Shown: in pieces, positions 3,001 through 10,974 of the stretch
How the letters are laid out: every line of letters starts with the position of its first letter
Position numbering within the stretch: position 1 is the stretch's first letter
Origin: Actinomycetes bacterium
GTDB taxonomy: Bacteria > Actinomycetota > Acidimicrobiia > Acidimicrobiales > SZUA-35
DNA: 36,172 bases
Assembly (NCBI GenBank): GCA_024276425.1
Contig: JAJRXF010000168.1
Location: 1-36,172 of the forward strand
Direction: 5' to 3'
Notes under the pieces: generated by a model
Databases searched by the model: none
What the model saw: only the letters and a program-made list of their open reading frames with translations
What the model was told of the DNA's origin: nothing
Translations under genes and position numbers: made by a program

Positions 3001-4319
3001 AGACCCAACAAACCCTCTTGCTGAACGATCTACGAGATCGAATTGTTGTCCAGGTGGATGGTCAGCTCAAAACCGGCCGAGATGTGATCATTGGTGCTCT
3101 GCTTGGCGCGGAAGAGTTTGGGTTTGCCACCGCACCTTTGGTTGTATCTGGATGTGTCATGATGCGCGTCTGTCACCTCGATACCTGTCCAGTCGGAATC
3201 GCTACCCAGAACCCCGAGCTTCGGGCCCGCTTTTCCGGAAGGCCCGAATTTGTTGAAACATTCTTCGAGTTTATTGCCGAGGAGGTCCGAGAGATTCTGG
3301 CCCAACTGGGCTTTTCTTCCTTGGATGAGGCCATTGGCCGGGTTGAATACCTGAATGCATCCGAGGCAATAGATCACTGGAAGGCCTCCGGGCTTGATCT
3401 GACCCCAATCCTGCATCTGCCCAACATTGGGGCTGCCTCCAGACATGCCACGACCCTGCAGGATCATGGGCTTGATCGGGCGCTTGATCATTCCCTAATC
3501 GCTTCGGCTCAAGGTGCCATTCACCGTAATACGCCGATACGTATCGAGCGCTCAATCAGCAATGTGAACCGCACCGTTGGTACCTTGCTTTCTCACGAGA
3601 TAACCAAGGTACATGGGGGCGCCGGGTTAGCGGATGGATTGATCACGGTGTGCTTTGAGGGCCAGGCCGGAAACTCCTTTGGAGCCTTTGTAACCAATGG
3701 TGTAACCCTTGAATTAGCCGGTGATGCCAACGACTATCTGGGTAAGGGTCTGTGTGGTGGCCGAATTATTGTCCGCCCCCCTGCTACCGCCCGTTTCGTC
3801 GCCGAGGACAACATCATTGCTGGCAACGTCATCCTCTATGGAGCGACAAGCGGCGAAGTTTTTATTCGGGGCCAAGTAGGGGAGAGGTTTTGTGTGAGGA
3901 ACTCGGGTGCAACGGCGGTGGTAGAGGGAGTCGGAGACCACGGTTGCGAATATATGACCGGTGGAACCGTGGCCGTGCTGGGCCAGACGGGCCGAAACTT
4001 TGGGGCTGGAATGTCGGGAGGCATCGCCTATGTCCATGACCCGGACAACTCCTTCTACAGCAGAGTGAATCATGAGATGGTCGACCTTGATCGTCTTGGT
4101 GCGCCGGATCAAGAAGCACTGCAAGAGATGGTCATACAGCACCACCAATTCACCGGATCGACGGTGGCGGAGCGACTCCTTGACCAATGGGATGATCTGG
4201 TCAGCCAGTTTGTGAAGGTCATGCCCATTGACTACAAGCGAGTCCTGGAGGCGGAGCGCTACGCCATCGAAAACGATCTGGACCCAGTCGACGCGATTAT
4301 GGAGGCCTCTCGTGGGTGA
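3..4319 (+). CDS. gltB: Glutamate synthase (GOGAT) large subunit, 5' end cut by window edge
   Basis: The large subunit makes two glutamates from glutamine and 2-oxoglutarate; its N-terminal amidotransferase releases ammonia that passes to the FMN synthase domain. The frame is open from base 3 and reads RFFQEV before the ATG at 21, so the true start and the catalytic N-terminal Cys lie outside the window. Counting from base 21, the class II amidotransferase motifs HSRFSTNT and HNGEIN lie near residues 140-170. The central domain follows. The FMN domain carries [11 protein letters not shown] near residue 826. The 3Fe-4S cysteines are in [17 protein letters not shown] near 1043-1058. The C-terminal GXGXG helix domain includes [21 protein letters not shown]. 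Length fits a family of about 1500 residues. The last 8 bases overlap gltD, so the two subunits are very probably translationally coupled. Confidence 0.97.
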
Positions 4320-5790
4320 TCCTCAAGGTTTTCTCCGGCACCGGCGCGAGGTCCCGGCTCGAAGGCCTGTTCCCGTGCGCCTCAGGGATTGGAAGGAGGT
4401 CTATGAATCCCAGGCCGACGCCGAGCTACGTGCGCAAGCGTCGCGCTGTATGGACTGCGGGATTCCCTTCTGCAACATGGGATGCCCGCTGGGCAACCTT
4501 ATCCCGGACTGGAATGACCTTGTCTATCGCGACAACTGGGAAGACGCAGCGAGGCGGCTCCACGCAACCAACAACTTTCCCGAGTTCACCGGTCGTCTCT
4601 GTCCCGCCCCTTGTGAGGGTGCCTGTGTGGCCGGAATCAACATCGATCCCATCACGATCAAGAATGTTGAACTAGCCATCATCGAACGAGCTTTCGCCGA
4701 AGGGTGGGTCACTCCCGTAATCGCCTCTCAACCGACTGGAAAACGAGTAGCCATCGTCGGCTCCGGTCCGGCAGGTCTGGCTGCGGCACAACAACTCACT
4801 CGAGCGGGACACGAGGTCACGGTCTATGAGCGGGCCGACCGTATTGGTGGTTTGATGCGCTACGGGATTCCCGAGTTCAAGATGGAAAAACACCTTCTTG
4901 ATCGGCGATTGGACCAGATGCGAGCCGAGGGAACTCGTTTTGTGGTCAATGCCTTCATCGGGGGTCCGATCGAAGAGGACCGTTCGATCCCGGTAGAAAG
5001 GCTCCGGGCCGATGCCGACGCAATTGTGTTGGCAACCGGTGCGACTCAGTGGCGAGGCCTGCCAATCCCCGGACGAGAACTTGCCGGGGTCCACCAGGCG
5101 ATGGAATACCTTCCGTCGGCCAACCGAATCCAACATGGAGACTCCGTCTCCGGGGCCATTGACGCCAAGGACAAGAATGTCATCATTATCGGGGGAGGCG
5201 ACACGGGCGCCGATTGTCTTGGAACCGCTTTGCGTCAAGGCGCAGCCAGTGTCCACCAACTGGAGATTATGGCTCGTCCACCGGACGAACGAGCAGATTC
5301 GACACCCTGGCCAACTTGGCCCCTGATGTATCGGGTTTCTTCCGCCCACGAAGAAGGGGGCGAGCGGATGTTCTCGGTGAGCACCACCGAGTTCGTTGGA
5401 GAGAACGGCCAACTGAGCGGACTACGAGGCCACAAGGTTCGGATGGAAATGGCCGATGGGCGGCCCAACTTCATCAAGATCGACCAGAGTGAGTTCGAAT
5501 TGGCCGCCGACCTGGTGTTCTTGGCCCTGGGGTTCACCGGAACGGAGCAAACCACCGTCGTCGCTCAACTCGGTCTCGAACTCGACAATCGGGGGAACAT
5601 CGTCCGTGATCGTGATTGGATGTCCTCGGTGAGTGATGTTTTTGTGTGCGGCGACAGTGGCCGAGGCCAGAGCCTGATCGTGTGGGCCATCGCCGAGGGC
5701 CGAGCTTGTGCCGCGGCGGTAGATCGTTCATTGATGGGAGAAACACTGCTTCCTTCGCCAGTGGGCCCCAATGATCGCCCCATGCGGTAA
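4312..5790 (+). CDS. gltD: Glutamate synthase small subunit
   Basis: GltD oxidises NADPH through FAD and passes electrons through iron-sulfur clusters to GltB. I chose the GTG at 4312 because it gives the family N-terminus [13 protein letters not shown], is preceded by GGAGG at 4301-4305, and overlaps the gltB stop by 8 bases; a longer frame back to 4228 only adds out-of-frame gltB sequence. The product is 492 residues, the usual size. Cluster cysteines are C46, C49, C54 and C58 ([14 protein letters not shown]), with a second set in [12 protein letters not shown] (C97, C101, C105). The FAD motif [10 protein letters not shown] and the NADPH motif [11 protein letters not shown] are intact. It forms an operon with gltB. 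Confidence 0.97.
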
Positions 5791-5841: not shown

Positions 5842-6555
5842 ATGAAGCGGCACCAGAGTCTCGAACAACGTTCAAGAGAGGTACCCGAACGTATTGTCGA
5901 CAGCGTTCCGCTGGGTCGAGCGCTGGAAAAGGCGCGCTCACGACTTGGGTACTCGCTTGAAGCCGCAGCGTCGACCCTTGGTATCTCCGAACGTTTGCTT
6001 GGGCATTTGGAGGCCGGGCTCCGCACACCGACAGAGGGCTTGCTTGAGGTGCTTTGTGAGCGCCTTGGGCTTGATCCTGAACGCCTCGGCACCCGTGCCT
6101 ACGTGCCACGGGTCGCCCCCTACCTGAATGAGAGTGGCAACATCCTTTGGCTTGGCTGGTTACCAATACACCTGCCCGAAGGTTTTGGCAATGAGCATCT
6201 GGTGCGTTCGGTTGGTTCTACGCTCCGCTTGATGCGGTCCCTCGATCCGAGCCAGCCGGTTTACCTGAGGGCGAGTGATCTTCCGCTTTTGGTGAGCTTG
6301 CTTGATATTGAGGACCCAACGCTACCGACCCTGCTTATTCGCTACCTTGGGCTTACCCTTTCCGAAGCGGTATGGGAGATCACGCGGATGCAGGAGATTC
6401 TCACGGCGGACGACGTACCGCTCTTGAGCCGCTCATCACTCGATCCGCTGTCCCGTCCCCATTCCCTGTCTCTTACTGAGGAGCAGCCAACTTCCGCCAG
6501 ACTAAGGGTCGCGATGGAACCGGGCGTGGACCTGGACATGTCAGCCAGCGTCTAA
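5842..6555 (+). CDS. XRE-like helix-turn-helix protein with unknown C-terminal domain
   Basis: The 237-residue product has an XRE/Cro-like HTH at about residues 24-83: LGRALEKARSRLGYSLEAAA, then TLGISERLLGHLEAG and a helix ending LGLDPERL, matching the five-helix layout of this fold. The remaining 150 residues are soluble, have no membrane segment, and I do not recognise them; they may sense a ligand or mediate dimerisation. The ATG at 5842 is the only reasonable start and has no Shine-Dalgarno sequence; an inverted repeat sits directly before it, which fits autoregulation. The stop overlaps that of the convergent DUF4388 gene (CTAA, 6552-6555). Its closeness to the conservon makes a link possible but unproven. 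Confidence 0.85.
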   Translation: MKRHQSLEQRSREVPERIVDSVPLGRALEKARSRLGYSLEAAASTLGISERLLGHLEAGLRTPTEGLLEVLCERLGLDPERLGTRAYVPRVAPYLNESGNILWLGWLPIHLPEGFGNEHLVRSVGSTLRLMRSLDPSQPVYLRASDLPLLVSLLDIEDPTLPTLLIRYLGLTLSEAVWEITRMQEILTADDVPLLSRSSLDPLSRPHSLSLTEEQPTSARLRVAMEPGVDLDMSASV

Positions 6556-7244
6556 CCCTCTTCGATGAGGCCCTCCAGCAGCAATCGGTAGAGCGACGAG
6601 CAGACCCGAAATGCACTTTCGCCGGTTTGGCTAATGACATCGGCAACGCTGTTACGTCCATCGAGGAGGGCCAGGTAGCGCCACTCATCGGATGTAATCA
6701 CCCGTTCTTCCTCCTCTCGAGGAAGAACGCCAGTTAGCCGAAAGGCCATTGATGTGTTGGGGATCCGGGCAGCAATTTTGGTCCAAATAGCGAGGCGACG
6801 CTCGGCCTGGGACATCAGTTCGCCCACTGGCTCAGCAAAACGAGGCCCAACGGGATGGCGTCGACCGTCATGAAACACATAGGGGTGTGAGGAAGGCACA
6901 ATCAACTCGAACAGTGAGCTGAGATTGAACTCGTGAAGAAGCCGATCCAGAACCGCACTAGCCTCAGGGTATTGCTCAGCGATAGTGCCAGCCGCATTGG
7001 CTTCGCTGTCGGCAAGAAGATCTCCGATTGTTTCCTCACTGACAGACCCTGCACCGAAAAGCACATCGGCTACGGGGCTCGAGCTCGCCGTTACCGCAAG
7101 ATAAATCTCGCCCTCGTGGAACCAGATCTCGTTCACTTCATTGATCTGGAGTAAGCCAGTGGCCTTCTCCTGGGCGAGTTCGTTGAGAACCTCGTTCAAG
7201 GACTGTTGGGAAAAGTCACCGCTTACTGTGTTCTGCTCATGCAC
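6552..7244 (-). CDS. DUF4388 (PATAN-type) protein with C-terminal winged-helix-like domain
   Basis: The N-terminal 100 residues match DUF4388: SGDFSQQSLNEVLNELAQ, then TGLLQINEVNEIWFHEGEIY and a following LADVLFGAG-like region. Such domains occur in signalling proteins such as PatA and are thought to mediate protein contacts. The last 45 residues look like a winged helix and resemble the DUF742 protein encoded by the neighbouring conservon. I chose the GTG at 7244 (230 residues, MHEQNTVSGDF). A longer frame starts with TTG at 7328, but that would overlap the start of the divergent kinase gene. Neither start has a good Shine-Dalgarno sequence, so the start is uncertain. Divergent arrangement with cvnA suggests a shared promoter region and a common pathway. 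Confidence 0.85.
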   Translation of the reverse strand: MHEQNTVSGDFSQQSLNEVLNELAQEKATGLLQINEVNEIWFHEGEIYLAVTASSSPVADVLFGAGSVSEETIGDLLADSEANAAGTIAEQYPEASAVLDRLLHEFNLSSLFELIVPSSHPYVFHDGRRHPVGPRFAEPVGELMSQAERRLAIWTKIAARIPNTSMAFRLTGVLPREEEERVITSDEWRYLALLDGRNSVADVISQTGESAFRVCSSLYRLLLEGLIEEG

Positions 7245-7321
7245 GAGAGGAAACCGTACCTCAAGGTTCTCAAGTTTGTTCGTCTCAGTCCGATGGTTCT
7301 GGTAGTTGCCGAGCCTGTGAG

Positions 7322-9493
7322 ATGCCAATGTTTCAGAACCTAAGCCTGCGGTCGAAGTTGATCGCTCTTGCTACGCCCCCTCTGGTTGTACTTGGAGTCA
7401 TCGCTGCCTATGGGTTGCTTCTCAGTTTACGTGGAGCGGGTGCAGATCTTGAATCGGACGTGAAGACACTGGGAATCTTGGCTCTCGCCACGTTCATCAT
7501 CACGACCTTGGCTGGGATTCTGATTGGGCAGTCCCTCAAGAACCCACTCGATCAGGCCACCGAGGCCGCTCGCGAGTTGTCCGAGAAGCGTCTGCCGCTG
7601 CTTTTGGAAACGCTGCGTAATCCTGGTGTTGAGGTACCGGAGTTCGAGCCCCTCACCGTCTCACAGGATGATGAGATGGGAGACCTCGTTCGAGCCCTCA
7701 ATGACGTTCAAGAGTCCGCCGCTCGCCTGGCCACAGAACAGCGTGATGTTGTCAGGGCGGGTCTGCAGGATCTTGTCGTCAATATGGCACGGCGGAACCA
7801 GAGTTTGCTTGATCGACAAATCGAAGTCATCGACCGGATCGAGTCGGCCGAAGAGGACCCGGATCGTCTGGAAGAGCTCTATCGAATGGACCACCTGGCG
7901 ACCCGCATGCGACGCAACGCAGAAAGCTTGCTGGTTCTTGCCGGAGCGGACCCCGCTCGTCGTCGTGGAGGACCAGTCGCCATCGCCGATGTCCTGCGGG
8001 TGGCCATGAGCGAGATCGAGGACTATCAGCACATCAGTCTGGAAGAGATCGAGGAGTCCAAAATCGGCCCCCAAGGTGCGGTCGATCTGGCTCATCTTGT
8101 TTCCGAGCTTCTGGAAAATGCTACCCAATTTTCACCCCCAGACAGCCCCGTCAAGGTTGCTGGCTCGGTTCACCCCGATGGTTCGTATCTGATCTCTGTC
8201 ACCGACTCTGGCATCGGTATGGACGAAGCTCAACTTCTGGCAGCGAACAGCACCCTGGTCCGTCCACCCGAACTTGGTCTTGGTTTGACTCGTTCCCTTG
8301 GATTCATTGTTGTTGGCCGTTTGGCCAAACGCCTCAACGTCGCCGTCGAGCTTGTGGCCGCACCCGGTGGGGGTACCACAGCCATTGTTGAGGTCCCGGC
8401 TGCTGCGCTATATGGCTATTCCGGCGCAACTCCCACCGAATCGGATCCTACAGAATCAGTCGAGGGAGATCCGCTCCAGGATCTCGCAGCGAACCCGTCA
8501 GAAACGGGAGTAGCCGACAACGAACCGGCCTCCCCCAATCCTGGTGGGTCGGAGATTCCCGGAGCGACCGTACAAACCTCACCACAGATTCAGCCAGCCG
8601 CGTCATCGACGTTGGCAACCGAAGCCTTTCCCCCGGTTGGCGACTCCTGGGCTCCGCCAACCATCCCAGAACGAGGAGCAAACCCGCTAGGCGCCCCTGC
8701 AGATTCCGGAGTGATTCCCCAAAGTACATCCGAAGCTGCTCCAGAGCCAGCCATTTCGGCATCGCCGACGGAACCCGCGGCTGCTTCGTTGCAACCCCAA
8801 ATGCCTCAAACCGACGAATCTGGTGCCCAGGGTCCAGCCACATCGGCTGCTCTTGCCAAACTACTCGGTCTCGATCCGACCGCGGCAACTGCCGCCCCGG
8901 CGGACCCTGGTGCTTCGGGGCTGAGTACTCCTAGCGAGGGGCTACCGACCAGGGAGACCGTGGCGGGGGGCGGTCCGGCTGAGGTTCCAGGAGCGGGATC
9001 GAGCATCTTCGCTCGGGAGGAAACTACCGAAGCGCCGCCAGTAGACAACGCTCCCTGGAGCGAGCCGATCTTTGACCCCTCGTTACTCGAGATCTCCTAT
9101 GACGATCCAGCCGGTACGCCTTCCAATAGCCCTGGAGGGGTTCCTGCGGTAGAGACTGCGCCCTTCAGTGCGGTCGAGCCAACCGCTCACTTGGAAGAAG
9201 CAATTCCGAGCGGACAAGAGTTTGATCAGGGAATGGCTTCGCTACTTGCACCTGAGCCGGAGAAGACCTCAACAGGCTTGGTAAAACGCAACCGCTCGGA
9301 ATCCCACGCCCCTGTTAGTGAGGGCCGACCAGTCGCAGCCAGCGTGCGCTCTCCCGAAGAAATCCGTTCCATGCTTGCTCGTTATCGCGACGGTCTGCAT
9401 GGTCGACCAACGACCCCGCCACCCGGAGCCCCGAGCGAAGCTTCGTCGTCAGATAATCCCCTCAACAACAATCCATTTGGAGACCAGTCATGA
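7322..9493 (+). CDS. cvnA: Conservon histidine kinase-like ATPase (CvnA type)
   Basis: This is the membrane component of an actinobacterial conservon, a four-gene unit in which a kinase-like ATPase works with a Roadblock protein, a DUF742 protein and a small GTPase. Two membrane helices (about residues 13-35 and 48-70) enclose an outside loop of only about a dozen residues. A HAMP-like stretch follows. The helical region has the family motif DHLATRMRRN with H191, then a HATPase domain with ELLENATQFSPP, DSGIGM and LGLGLTRSLG. From about residue 365 there is a Pro/Ala/Ser/Glu-rich, probably disordered tail of some 300 residues. It ends in the typical motif EIRSMLARYRDGLHG. Start is ATG 7322, or ATG 7328 six bases on. 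It overlaps cvnB by ATGA. Confidence 0.93.
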   Translation: MPMFQNLSLRSKLIALATPPLVVLGVIAAYGLLLSLRGAGADLESDVKTLGILALATFIITTLAGILIGQSLKNPLDQATEAARELSEKRLPLLLETLRNPGVEVPEFEPLTVSQDDEMGDLVRALNDVQESAARLATEQRDVVRAGLQDLVVNMARRNQSLLDRQIEVIDRIESAEEDPDRLEELYRMDHLATRMRRNAESLLVLAGADPARRRGGPVAIADVLRVAMSEIEDYQHISLEEIEESKIGPQGAVDLAHLVSELLENATQFSPPDSPVKVAGSVHPDGSYLISVTDSGIGMDEAQLLAANSTLVRPPELGLGLTRSLGFIVVGRLAKRLNVAVELVAAPGGGTTAIVEVPAAALYGYSGATPTESDPTESVEGDPLQDLAANPSETGVADNEPASPNPGGSEIPGATVQTSPQIQPAASSTLATEAFPPVGDSWAPPTIPERGANPLGAPADSGVIPQSTSEAAPEPAISASPTEPAAASLQPQMPQTDESGAQGPATSAALAKLLGLDPTAATAAPADPGASGLSTPSEGLPTRETVAGGGPAEVPGAGSSIFAREETTEAPPVDNAPWSEPIFDPSLLEISYDDPAGTPSNSPGGVPAVETAPFSAVEPTAHLEEAIPSGQEFDQGMASLLAPEPEKTSTGLVKRNRSESHAPVSEGRPVAASVRSPEEIRSMLARYRDGLHGRPTTPPPGAPSEASSSDNPLNNNPFGDQS

Positions 9494-9912
9494 CCGTTAT
9501 GAGCAGCCAGGCCAGCAACGTAAACTGGCTCGTCAACAATTTTGTGAGTCAGGTGCCAGGGGTTAACGATTCGGTTGTTGTCTCCTCTGACGGCTTGCCT
9601 ATTGCTGCCTCCGCCGGACTTGACCGTGATGCAGTAGACCGCTTCTCTGCGGTTGCTTCGGGCCTGATTGGGCTTGCCTACGGTGCAGCCGGTCGGTTCG
9701 GTGGAGGTGCCGTGACCGAGGTGATCGTCGAAATGGAAAACGCCTTCTTGTTCGTGACGGGCATTAGCGATGGTTCACTTTTGGCCACAATTGCCGAGTC
9801 GGCATGTGATGTCGGACTTGTCGCATACGAGATGGCAGTCCTGGTTGAAAAGACCGGCGCCGTCCTCACTCCAGAACTTCGAGCCGAGCTGCAAGCTTCG
9901 CTCCCTCGCTAA
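9490..9912 (+). CDS. cvnB: Roadblock/LC7 domain protein of the conservon (CvnB type)
   Basis: A 140-residue, single-domain Roadblock/LC7 protein, expected to sit in the cytoplasm at the membrane complex and to act on the small GTPase. The hallmark is NWLVNNFVSQVPGVNDSVVVSSDGLPIAASAG near the N-terminus (shown in parts), followed by the alternating strands ending in LLATIAESACDVGLVAYEMA. The start ATG overlaps the cvnA stop (ATGA, 9490-9493) and has GGAG at 9479-9482, so it is translationally coupled to the kinase gene. Length and order (kinase, Roadblock, DUF742, GTPase) are exactly those of known conservons. Confidence 0.95.
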   Translation: MTVMSSQASNVNWLVNNFVSQVPGVNDSVVVSSDGLPIAASAGLDRDAVDRFSAVASGLIGLAYGAAGRFGGGAVTEVIVEMENAFLFVTGISDGSLLATIAESACDVGLVAYEMAVLVEKTGAVLTPELRAELQASLPR

Positions 9913-9997
9913 CCACGACCCTCTTGTAGCAACTACTAACTCCCGATATGCCGGCGCCGATAGGGCTAACAATCACAACGTTCCGGCATCGCATCAT

Positions 9998-10031
9998 CCA
10001 GGTGAATCCATGACCCAGGTGAACCCATGAC
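9998..10031 (+). repeat. 17-bp tandem duplication carrying a ribosome-binding site and start codon
   Basis: The unit CCAGGTGAAYCCATGAC occurs twice in a row (9998-10014 and 10015-10031), differing at one base. Each copy holds an AGGTGA Shine-Dalgarno-like sequence and an ATG. The second copy supplies the start of the DUF742 gene (ATG 10027). The first ATG (10010) opens a six-codon frame, MTQVNP, whose TGA overlaps the second ATG as ATGA. It therefore reads as a duplicated translation start that leaves a tiny leader ORF coupled to the gene. Confidence 0.85.
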
Positions 10032-10389
10032 AGACTCCAACCAAGAGCAACCCTCACTTCGGGTTCGCCCCTACCTCGTAACAGGTGGTCGTACACGAAG
10101 CACAATTGATTTGCCCCTTGAGGCGTTGGTCCTGACCACCCCTGCTGGTCAGGCGGCTATCGAGAGCATGAACCATGAGCGACGCCGAATCGTGGAACTC
10201 TGCGTCGAGCGGCAGTCACTGGCAGAGATCTCAGCTCTGACCCATGTTCATCTTCAGGTGGCCAAGGTTTTGGTTGGCGACCTGATCTCTGAGGGCTTTC
10301 TCGGTTCCCATACTGCGAACGCCTCCCCCTCTGTCCGCCCCGACGTTCAGTTGCTTGAACGTGTACTCGACGGCCTCCAGTCGCTGTAG
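10027..10389 (+). CDS. cvnC: DUF742 protein of the conservon (CvnC type)
   Basis: The 120-residue product carries the DUF742 signature RVRPYLVTGGRTRS near residue 12 and a winged-helix-like C-terminal half (ERRRIVELCVERQSLAEISA, then LISEGFLGSH). DUF742 proteins are conservon partners thought to bridge the kinase and the GTPase or to act in gene control. I chose the ATG at 10027 because it lies directly before the signature region and is preceded by AGGTGA; the ATG 17 bases upstream is out of frame. There is a gap of 114 bases after cvnB, larger than the other gaps in this operon, and it contains the tandem duplication of the start region. Confidence 0.94.
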   Translation: MTDSNQEQPSLRVRPYLVTGGRTRSTIDLPLEALVLTTPAGQAAIESMNHERRRIVELCVERQSLAEISALTHVHLQVAKVLVGDLISEGFLGSHTANASPSVRPDVQLLERVLDGLQSL

Positions 10390-10395
10390 GAACCA

Positions 10396-10974
10396 ATGAA
10401 CGCATCAGCTAACCCCATTCCAGTCAAGATCGTCATCGCCGGTGGCTTCGGTGTCGGTAAGAGCACCTTTGTTGGTTCCATCTCCGATATTGATCCTCTG
10501 ACAACCGAGGCGGCCATGACCAAGGCCAGCGAAGCCGTTGACGACGTCGGTGACGCAACGAGCAAGAAGTCGACGACCGTGGCTATGGACTTTGGCCGGG
10601 TTGCGCTGAGTTCTGAGCTTGTCTTGTATCTTTTTGGAACTCCGGGCCAGGATCGGTTCCACTTTATGTGGGATGAATTGATTCGAGGAGCGATCGGGGC
10701 CGTTGTCCTGGTGGACACGGGTCGTCTTGAGCAGTGCTTCGCCGCGGTTGACTATATGGAGCGCGCTGGGGTGCCCTTTGTCGTAGCCATTAATGCTTTT
10801 GACGGCGTATTGCGTCACCACCCAGACGATGTCCGTGAAGCACTTGATGTACCGGCCCACATTCCCGTTCTGGTGACCGATGCCCGTCACCGGGCCGCGG
10901 TTCGCGACACCCTCGTTGGTCTGGTTCGCCACGCGATGATGCAGGCCTCGTCCCCGGCGCCGGTCAACTCTTAG
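10396..10974 (+). CDS. cvnD: Small GTPase of the conservon (CvnD type)
   Basis: A Ras-like/MglA-like GTP-binding protein of 192 residues. The P-loop is GGFGVGKST at residues 16-24, the switch II region is FGTPGQDRF, and the base-recognition loop is NAFDG in place of the common NKxD, as usual for this family. It is the output switch of the conservon, cycling between GTP and GDP under control of the Roadblock protein. It starts 6 bases after the DUF742 stop with AGGA upstream (10388-10391), so all four genes form one operon. It ends 12 bases before the convergent 74-residue gene. Confidence 0.95.
   Translation: MNASANPIPVKIVIAGGFGVGKSTFVGSISDIDPLTTEAAMTKASEAVDDVGDATSKKSTTVAMDFGRVALSSELVLYLFGTPGQDRFHFMWDELIRGAIGAVVLVDTGRLEQCFAAVDYMERAGVPFVVAINAFDGVLRHHPDDVREALDVPAHIPVLVTDARHRAAVRDTLVGLVRHAMMQASSPAPVNS

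Follow-up and report, generated by a model that had tools for sequence, protein, structure and literature searches.

What does a gene for a DUF4388 protein do when it stands divergently beside a complete conservon? The entry and exit of signals is an open matter for the conservon, and a conserved extra partner would give a handle on which proteins interact. PMC13343842 describes the phosphorylation target of CvnA8 as not known and treats the position of CvnC as a working model. The original prediction for this locus held that the DUF4388 protein ends in a stretch resembling the DUF742 protein CvnC, and that it is a fifth component which competes with or replaces CvnC. The features of the window (the whole stretch of DNA analysed, 36,172 nucleotides) that bear on this question were as follows.

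4228..5790, forward strand: gltD, a common neighbour of the DUF4388-conservon block (named by eye)
6552..7244, reverse strand: DUF4388/PATAN - winged-helix gene, an ORF with a GTG start, 230 aa
6783..7223, reverse strand: DUF4388 domain, residues 8-154 (Pfam envelope)
6555..6779, reverse strand: C-terminal winged helix, residues 156-230 (AlphaFold2 model, VIA and a profile of 117 tails)
7245..7321, no strand: divergent intergenic region, 77 bp
7270..7296, forward strand: WhiG/FliA-type promoter-like element TCAAGTTT-N11-TCCGATGG, pointing to cvnA
7322..9493, forward strand: cvnA, histidine-kinase-like (Pfam HATPase_c; HAMP below cut-off)
9490..9912, forward strand: cvnB, roadblock/LC7 (Pfam Robl_LC7, E 4e-20)
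10027..10389, forward strand: cvnC, DUF742 (Pfam E 1.2e-27), winged helix at residues 26-96
10396..10974, forward strand: cvnD, small Ras-like/MglA-type GTPase (Pfam ATP_bind_1 and GTP_EFTU above cut-off, Ras below cut-off)

The conservon was complete in the order cvnA, cvnB, cvnC, cvnD (7322-10974). The DUF4388 gene and cvnA formed a divergent gene pair separated by 77 bp. On the side of the DUF4388 gene away from the conservon lay gltB and gltD (names assigned by eye). Among the 30 family loci L004-L033, gltD was found in the 1.5-kb flank of 24; it was missing in the other six and in several loci beyond these. A hydropathy scan placed the transmembrane helices of the window CvnA at residues 16-34 and 50-68, about 15 residues apart, with no extracytoplasmic sensor domain. 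An Xre-like helix-turn-helix protein gene (5842-6555) lay between gltD and the DUF4388 gene, convergent with the latter. Related genes held the same position in some members of the family group, in either orientation, with two copies in L009 and L010.

The 230-aa protein matched DUF4388 (PF14332) in Pfam with an E value of 8.1e-8 and 32.8 bits against a cut-off of 25. This was its sole Pfam match above cut-off, so the GAF domain that marks CvnF was not found; the Pfam scan gave no cytochrome P450 domain, the trait of CvnE, and DUF742 (PF05331) was absent from the matches. DUF4388 was matched in 36 of 37 aligned family members. When the 37 members were scanned with Pfam at E values up to 10, 17 families were matched and DUF742 was not one of them. 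PATAN and DUF4388 are taken here to be one domain.

The structures of the DUF4388 protein and of CvnC were predicted by AlphaFold2, with a mean pLDDT of 92.3 and pTM of 0.81 for the former and 84.7 and 0.72 for the latter. The tail of the DUF4388 protein was modelled with helices at residues 185-193, 200-207, and 211-223 and strands at 167-170 and 227-229. The model has the winged-helix fold, which is the fold of CvnC and is shared by many other families. The top VIA-align match of residues 156-230 was the NPRL2 winged helix 9v0j_A (Z 9.2, rmsd 3.0, 71 aligned), tied with 8hkr_A at Z 9.2. CvnC residues 26-96 likewise matched 9v0j_A best (Z 9.1, rmsd 2.0, 70 aligned). Since top Z values of 7 to 8 are usual even where no true relative exists, these values are barely above the common level and the NPRL2 subtype of both predicted winged helices is only suggested. 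NPRL2 and NPRL3 are part of GATOR1, a regulator of Rag GTPases. The likeness to them is a top structural match tied with unrelated chains, with no sequence similarity shown. Foldseek alone gave no match at E ≤ 0.001 for either model. When solved structures were searched by sequence, the DUF4388 profile hit a single engineered protein (E 0.0011) and CvnC hit two structures (E 0.0016 and 0.98); these matches were set aside.

The predicted structures of the two C-termini, each compared separately, thus agreed as expected from the original prediction. Both are winged helices over about 70 residues with NPRL2 as the common top match. The two proteins differ in that the DUF4388 protein carries the DUF4388 domain and has neither the N-terminal RPY-TGGRTR part nor the last helix of CvnC, and both proteins co-occur. 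The winged helix of the window DUF4388 protein had a net charge of -5, with a mean of -4.05 and a range of -8 to 0 in 37 members, and the charge of its recognition helix was about 0. The winged helix of CvnC was likewise acidic (mean -2.26, n=19).

Sequence comparison gave a less specific result. The motifs that had been aligned by eye were present (RNSVAD/RQSLAE, a Thr, and LLLEGL/LISEGF). The match had been placed at the end of CvnC, which in fact runs about 25 residues further with an extra helix. BLASTP of the DUF4388 protein against CvnC gave nothing in the claimed region; the best E value was 0.47, elsewhere. Local alignment of the chosen ends scored 30, which was equalled or exceeded by 108 of 5000 shuffles, and the full-protein alignment score was equalled or exceeded by 230 of 2000 shuffles. 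Small profiles (37 DUF4388 and 19 DUF742 sequences) gave the register proposed by eye a probability of 0.3% and a P of 0.24. Larger profiles (117 DUF4388 tails and 97 DUF742 sequences) gave a score of 17.4 over 83 columns (P 0.0023, probability 5%), which exceeded all 100 column-shuffled controls (highest 11.4). The scores of the 117 tails in hhalign were 52.9 against MarR (26 sequences, probability 96.5%) and 37.9 against ArsR (24 sequences, probability 87.3%), and the DUF742 profile scored 25.5 and 21.8 against the same two families. Against the roadblock profile, the DUF4388 tails scored 2.2 (probability 0.05%) and DUF742 scored 7.2.

The shared fold is taken as real, and because MarR and ArsR outscored DUF742, no DUF742-specific signature is present. 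The by-eye match therefore held as a statement on fold and failed as a specific signature. Specific descent of the tail from DUF742 was set aside as unsupported on the same scores. Judged by sequence, the DUF4388 tail and DUF742 are both winged helices, and neither is the other's closest kin. The DUF742 of CvnC has already been placed in the helix-turn-helix superfamily in PMC8510531.

The linkage of the DUF4388 gene to cvnA was investigated in the family group of the window. An orthologue at E 4e-39 or better was found in 35 of the 37 genomes searched, own genome included, and no orthologue was found in G002 and G035. DUF742 lay within 5 kb on the same contig in 33 of these 35 genomes (exceptions G013 and G029). 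In each of the 30 loci fetched at the outset, from the window and 29 relatives, cvnA was adjacent on the opposite strand. A divergent cvnA was also adjacent in 29/29 named loci found by DUF4388 protein alignment alone, and this is the unselected linkage figure; the 30 first-fetched loci came from the G genomes and are partly the same organisms as the 29 named loci. The named loci belonged to metagenome-assembled Acidimicrobiales, Acidimicrobiia, Acidimicrobiaceae or more loosely named actinobacteria. From the named members, the order of the linked copies is Acidimicrobiales. In genomes with several conservons, of which the family group has many, the DUF4388 gene was found at one only.

Of 218 genomes in the order, 72 gave a match of some kind to the DUF4388 alignment, and DUF742 was matched in 64. 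These counts come from profile searches; ORF calls were crude in GC-rich DNA and missed genes. A single DUF4388 match that reached 60 bits or more and covered most of the model was found in 24 genomes (lists read by eye). Eighteen of them were conservon-linked, G053 and G233 being judged by the adjacent cvnA, and the remaining six were unlinked, all in group f3 with 88-105 bits. Five of the six had no cvnA within 1.5 kb on either side, and the flank of the sixth, G216, was incomplete. Split DUF4388 matches beside a conservon were found in G209, G242, and G114. The linked genomes spanned 11 family groups (f1, f6, f12, f14, f18, f24, f30, f40, f42, f44, and f53). The expected enrichment of DUF4388 beside conservons in related genomes was thus borne out, with 29/29 named loci and 11 family groups.

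Both gene trees agreed with this linkage. The linked CvnA clustered in a tree of 99 cores, with 8 changes against a shuffled mean of 33; 4 of 103 loci (L069, L105, L113, and L163) had been dropped for too little core. The DUF4388 tree held 119 proteins, and the 46 linked ones, from all 11 groups, lay on one side of a single branch (SH-aLRT 97), for which the shuffled mean was 36.8 changes. The other members of this tree were 53 phylum proteins in roadblock/GTPase operons, 9 phylum proteins without either gene, and 11 unlinked proteins of the order. The DUF4388 search alone supplied 29 of the 46 linked loci, and the other 17 were chosen because their coordinates suggested linkage or as a check; L042 was left out as a copy of L080. 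A single recruitment of DUF4388 followed by descent fits the DUF4388 tree best, within the limits set by long branches and a root that is not fixed.

The genes within 7 kb of the 46 linked loci were a divergent CvnA in 46, DUF742 in 40, cvnB in 39, and cvnD in 39. Of the six loci without DUF742, L057, L069, L035, L157, and L160 end at a contig end, and L072 continues. The reduced conservon of L072 (4929-7258) consisted of gltD, DUF4388, a 476-aa CvnA, and a nitroreductase-like ORF (by eye), with cvnB, cvnC, and cvnD gone. In the reduced conservon of L079 (2218-5928), DUF4388, CvnA, and CvnC were kept and cvnB and cvnD were gone. Both loci are from metagenome assemblies. Where the roadblock and GTPase genes were lost, DUF4388 was thus retained with CvnA in two genomes. 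Because CvnC was kept except at contig ends and at one reduced locus, it has not been replaced, and the proposal that DUF4388 replaces CvnC is unsupported in this order, where DUF742 is present at 40/46 linked loci. Groups f3 (G038, G135, and G240) and f53 (G160 and G235) had related conservons with no DUF4388 gene in the stretch examined. DUF4388 is therefore dispensable, an accessory.

Relatives elsewhere in the phylum had different neighbours. A match to the DUF4388 alignment was found in 100 of 346 phylum genomes. Sixty loci from 53 genomes outside the order were investigated; they were taken from the top of the match list downward, nearly in sequence, and are not a random sample. These loci held 62 long DUF4388 matches. 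Upstream, 44 had a roadblock gene on the same strand within 1.2 kb; downstream, 43 had a CvnD-like GTPase gene within 4 kb; 34 had both and 9 had neither. Many of the downstream GTPase genes were not adjacent, at 232 to 3751 bp from the DUF4388 gene. Neither DUF742 nor a CvnA-like kinase was found in any of the 60 loci. The order in L174 by Pfam was aroE, roadblock, DUF4388, GTPase. From gene order, DUF4388 relatives elsewhere appear mostly to occupy roughly the place of CvnC, between roadblock and GTPase genes. Three consecutive roadblock genes stood ahead of DUF4388 in L193, L194, L198, and L201.

Outside the order, 8 of the 32 genomes with DUF742 also had DUF4388 (Fisher p 0.49-0.66); the genome lists were read by eye and the table totals were assumed to be 310, 322, and 338. 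In these eight genomes, the two families were unlinked among the matches listed (coordinates judged by eye). Mutual exclusion of DUF4388 and DUF742 across genomes was rejected, as their distributions are independent. In the window's genome, a second DUF4388 gene (L001; L315 7891-10760) is flanked by aroE and a type IV leader peptidase gene, and it has no conservon beside it. This copy carries the same kind of tail far from the conservon, which indicates that the tail was not acquired from the conservon. Such a tail is a usual feature of DUF4388 proteins. Its locus recalls the order of L174 minus the roadblock and GTPase genes.

The intergenic DNA was investigated for promoters. The full form of the WhiG/FliA promoter is 8-N11-8. 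The element TCAAGTTT-N11-TCCGATGG in the window ended 25 bp ahead of the annotated cvnA start. The element is conserved in the family group. Scored against TAAAGTTT-N11-GCCGATAA with spacings of 10-12 allowed, the best matches of the 30 family loci averaged 10.9/16 toward cvnA, compared with 9.07 on the reverse strand and 8.93 for shuffled sequences. The spacing was exactly 11 in 27/30 loci, and in 11/30 at least 15% of the shuffles equalled the match. The strict pattern was found upstream of 31/47 linked cvnA (reverse strand 2/47, shuffled rate 0.007) and 10/51 unlinked cvnA (reverse 4/51, shuffled 0.006). Strict matches in L065, L041, and L037 lie far from the gene and may be due to chance, and the loci are related. 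In the close set, the -35-like part overlapped what may be the ribosome-binding site of DUF4388. L018, L021, L022, L024, and L026 had a comparable box on the opposite strand, toward DUF4388. A generic sigma-70 scan of 6500-7500 gave no promoter. The intergenic region also contained a 9-nt direct repeat at 7260-7277, the second copy being 89% identical.

This genome has a FliA/WhiG-family sigma gene (TIGR02479, 269.5 bits against a cut-off of 189.6). A sigma factor of this family was found in 61/61 relatives and was above the curated cut-off in 56. In PMC8325347, the consensus is given as -35 TAAA and -10 GCCGATAA, and WhiG is under c-di-GMP control in other actinobacteria. The WhiG-type element would thus tie the conservon switch to a sigma factor that is controlled by c-di-GMP in those organisms.

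The DUF4388 protein is read here as an accessory fifth component of one conservon that acts by protein binding, most likely at the kinase end, and we consider this reading about evenly poised between right and wrong. Of the original prediction, a fifth component is plausible from linkage and fold, and the replacement of CvnC is unsupported in this order. The protein is taken as a protein-binding adaptor because its winged helix is acidic and its relatives lie in roadblock/GTPase operons. The DUF4388/PATAN domain and the winged helix would then be protein-binding modules and not parts of a DNA-binding repressor. The cytosolic protein would modulate CvnA or link CvnA to CvnB/CvnD, and would act in parallel with CvnC; physical binding, its target, and the direction of its effect are presumed. 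For the target, the reduced loci point to CvnA and the phylum-wide operons to CvnB/CvnD. We lean to CvnA, although the absence of a CvnA-like kinase from the relatives' loci (0/60) argues for the GTPase end and against the kinase end. The two natural reductions keep DUF4388 with CvnA (one also CvnC), and the operons of the relatives put DUF4388 at about the place of CvnC. The winged helix might instead bind CvnB/CvnD at the site of CvnC, competing with it or substituting for it, which we rate as unlikely. This would agree with the fold common with CvnC, with NPRL2 and Npr2/3 winged helices ranking first or close to it for both models, and with the frequent position of DUF4388 between roadblock and GTPase genes at loci that lack DUF742 (0/60). 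PATAN genes near MglA and MglB, as described in PMC4316618, point the same way. However, CvnC stays beside DUF4388 save at contig ends and one reduced locus, and DUF4388 outlasts cvnB and cvnD in L072 and L079. The independent distribution of the two families also shows no mutual exclusion, and the sequence similarity to DUF742 is below that to MarR/ArsR.

A divergent arrangement is a classic layout of autoregulators, and the 77-bp gap with its 9-nt direct repeat would suit a winged helix that binds the intergenic DNA and controls cvnA and its own gene. The resemblance of the winged helix to MarR and ArsR profiles is consistent with this, and DNA binding was proposed, as a hypothesis, for CvnC of related fold (PMC8510531). 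We nevertheless consider such control improbable. The domain is acidic with an about neutral recognition helix, a charge by which a DNA-binding role is disfavoured, and the relatives elsewhere are mostly co-oriented in roadblock/GTPase operons. The sigma-type element accounts for the conserved DNA, and the best structural matches include protein-binding winged helices. It is equally improbable that the protein is a neighbour with its own job, such as a PATAN regulator of type IV pili, kept in place by the gltBD block or by shared regulation. In cyanobacteria, the pilus motor PilB is a binding partner of PATAN domains (PMC10519157), and the second DUF4388 gene adjoins a type IV leader peptidase gene. 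A WhiG switch controls pilus genes in Rubrobacter (PMC8325347), and a WhiG-type promoter-like element precedes cvnA here. Against an own job, the linkage to cvnA holds in 11 family groups, yet gltD is missing at 6/30 family loci and several others, and the linked copies form a branch of their own.

The accessory reading may be part of a wider picture, which we regard as rather doubtful. A unit of roadblock, winged helix, and small GTPase would be an old bacterial device, whose winged-helix slot is filled by DUF4388/PATAN or DUF742. The conservon would have arisen from this unit by adding the kinase and placing DUF742 in the middle slot, and this order would have added or kept DUF4388 as a fifth component. 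If true, the NPRL2/NPRL3-like winged helix would echo the eukaryotic GATOR1-Rag-roadblock machinery.

Known systems offer several comparisons. PATAN genes occur near MglA groups 1 and 5 and MglB (PMC4316618, citing Makarova 2006), as DUF4388 stands here beside roadblock and Ras-like GTPase genes, in order in 34/62 relatives. PMC4316618 gives the link for MglA groups 1 and 5; its account of the conservon (group 2) has four genes and mentions no PATAN gene. In Myxococcus, PATAN proteins co-occur with the MglA effector SgmX (PMC11580455). In the literature covered (titles and abstract starts, with subscription journals largely outside), no description of a DUF4388 gene at a conservon was found, and DUF4388 under that number appeared there in one paper, on another subject. 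CvnE and CvnF, as described in PMC13343842, are like DUF4388 in that an extra gene is tied to one conservon. They go with CvnA without sensory domains, as DUF4388 does in the family group, where the partner CvnA has no extracytoplasmic sensor domain. They differ in their GAF or P450 domain, whereas the DUF4388 protein consists of DUF4388 and a winged helix. CvnE/CvnF are also counted four genes from cvnA in that text, whereas the DUF4388 gene is divergent from cvnA. A further difference is that the sensor loop persists in 12/13 DUF4388-linked CvnA from outside the family group.

The sensor loop was measured by hydropathy scan. In linked CvnA of the family group, the transmembrane helices were 4-23 residues apart in 33/33 loci (29 named contigs and 4 genomes). 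Among the unlinked conservons of the same family group, the loop spanned 116-330 aa in 32 of the 38 retrieved; the loops of L099, L105, L106, L111, L113, and L118 were not measurable. The unlinked DUF742 places fetched (40) are a subset. Outside the family group, 12 linked CvnA had loops of 150-313 residues and one, G242, had 12 residues. The rule known from CvnE/CvnF was therefore dropped as proof for DUF4388; these loops fit it in the family group and G242 and do not establish it for DUF4388. Since the loop is kept in linked CvnA outside the family group, the link between DUF4388 and CvnA looks older than the loss of the sensor loop, which was one event inside the family group on the CvnA tree. 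Three unlinked CvnA were also loop-less (G045, G146, and one copy in G233). Four unlinked CvnA of the family group were scanned and gave no match to the NIT sensor family, and the four scanned linked CvnA with a loop matched NIT, one just below cut-off.
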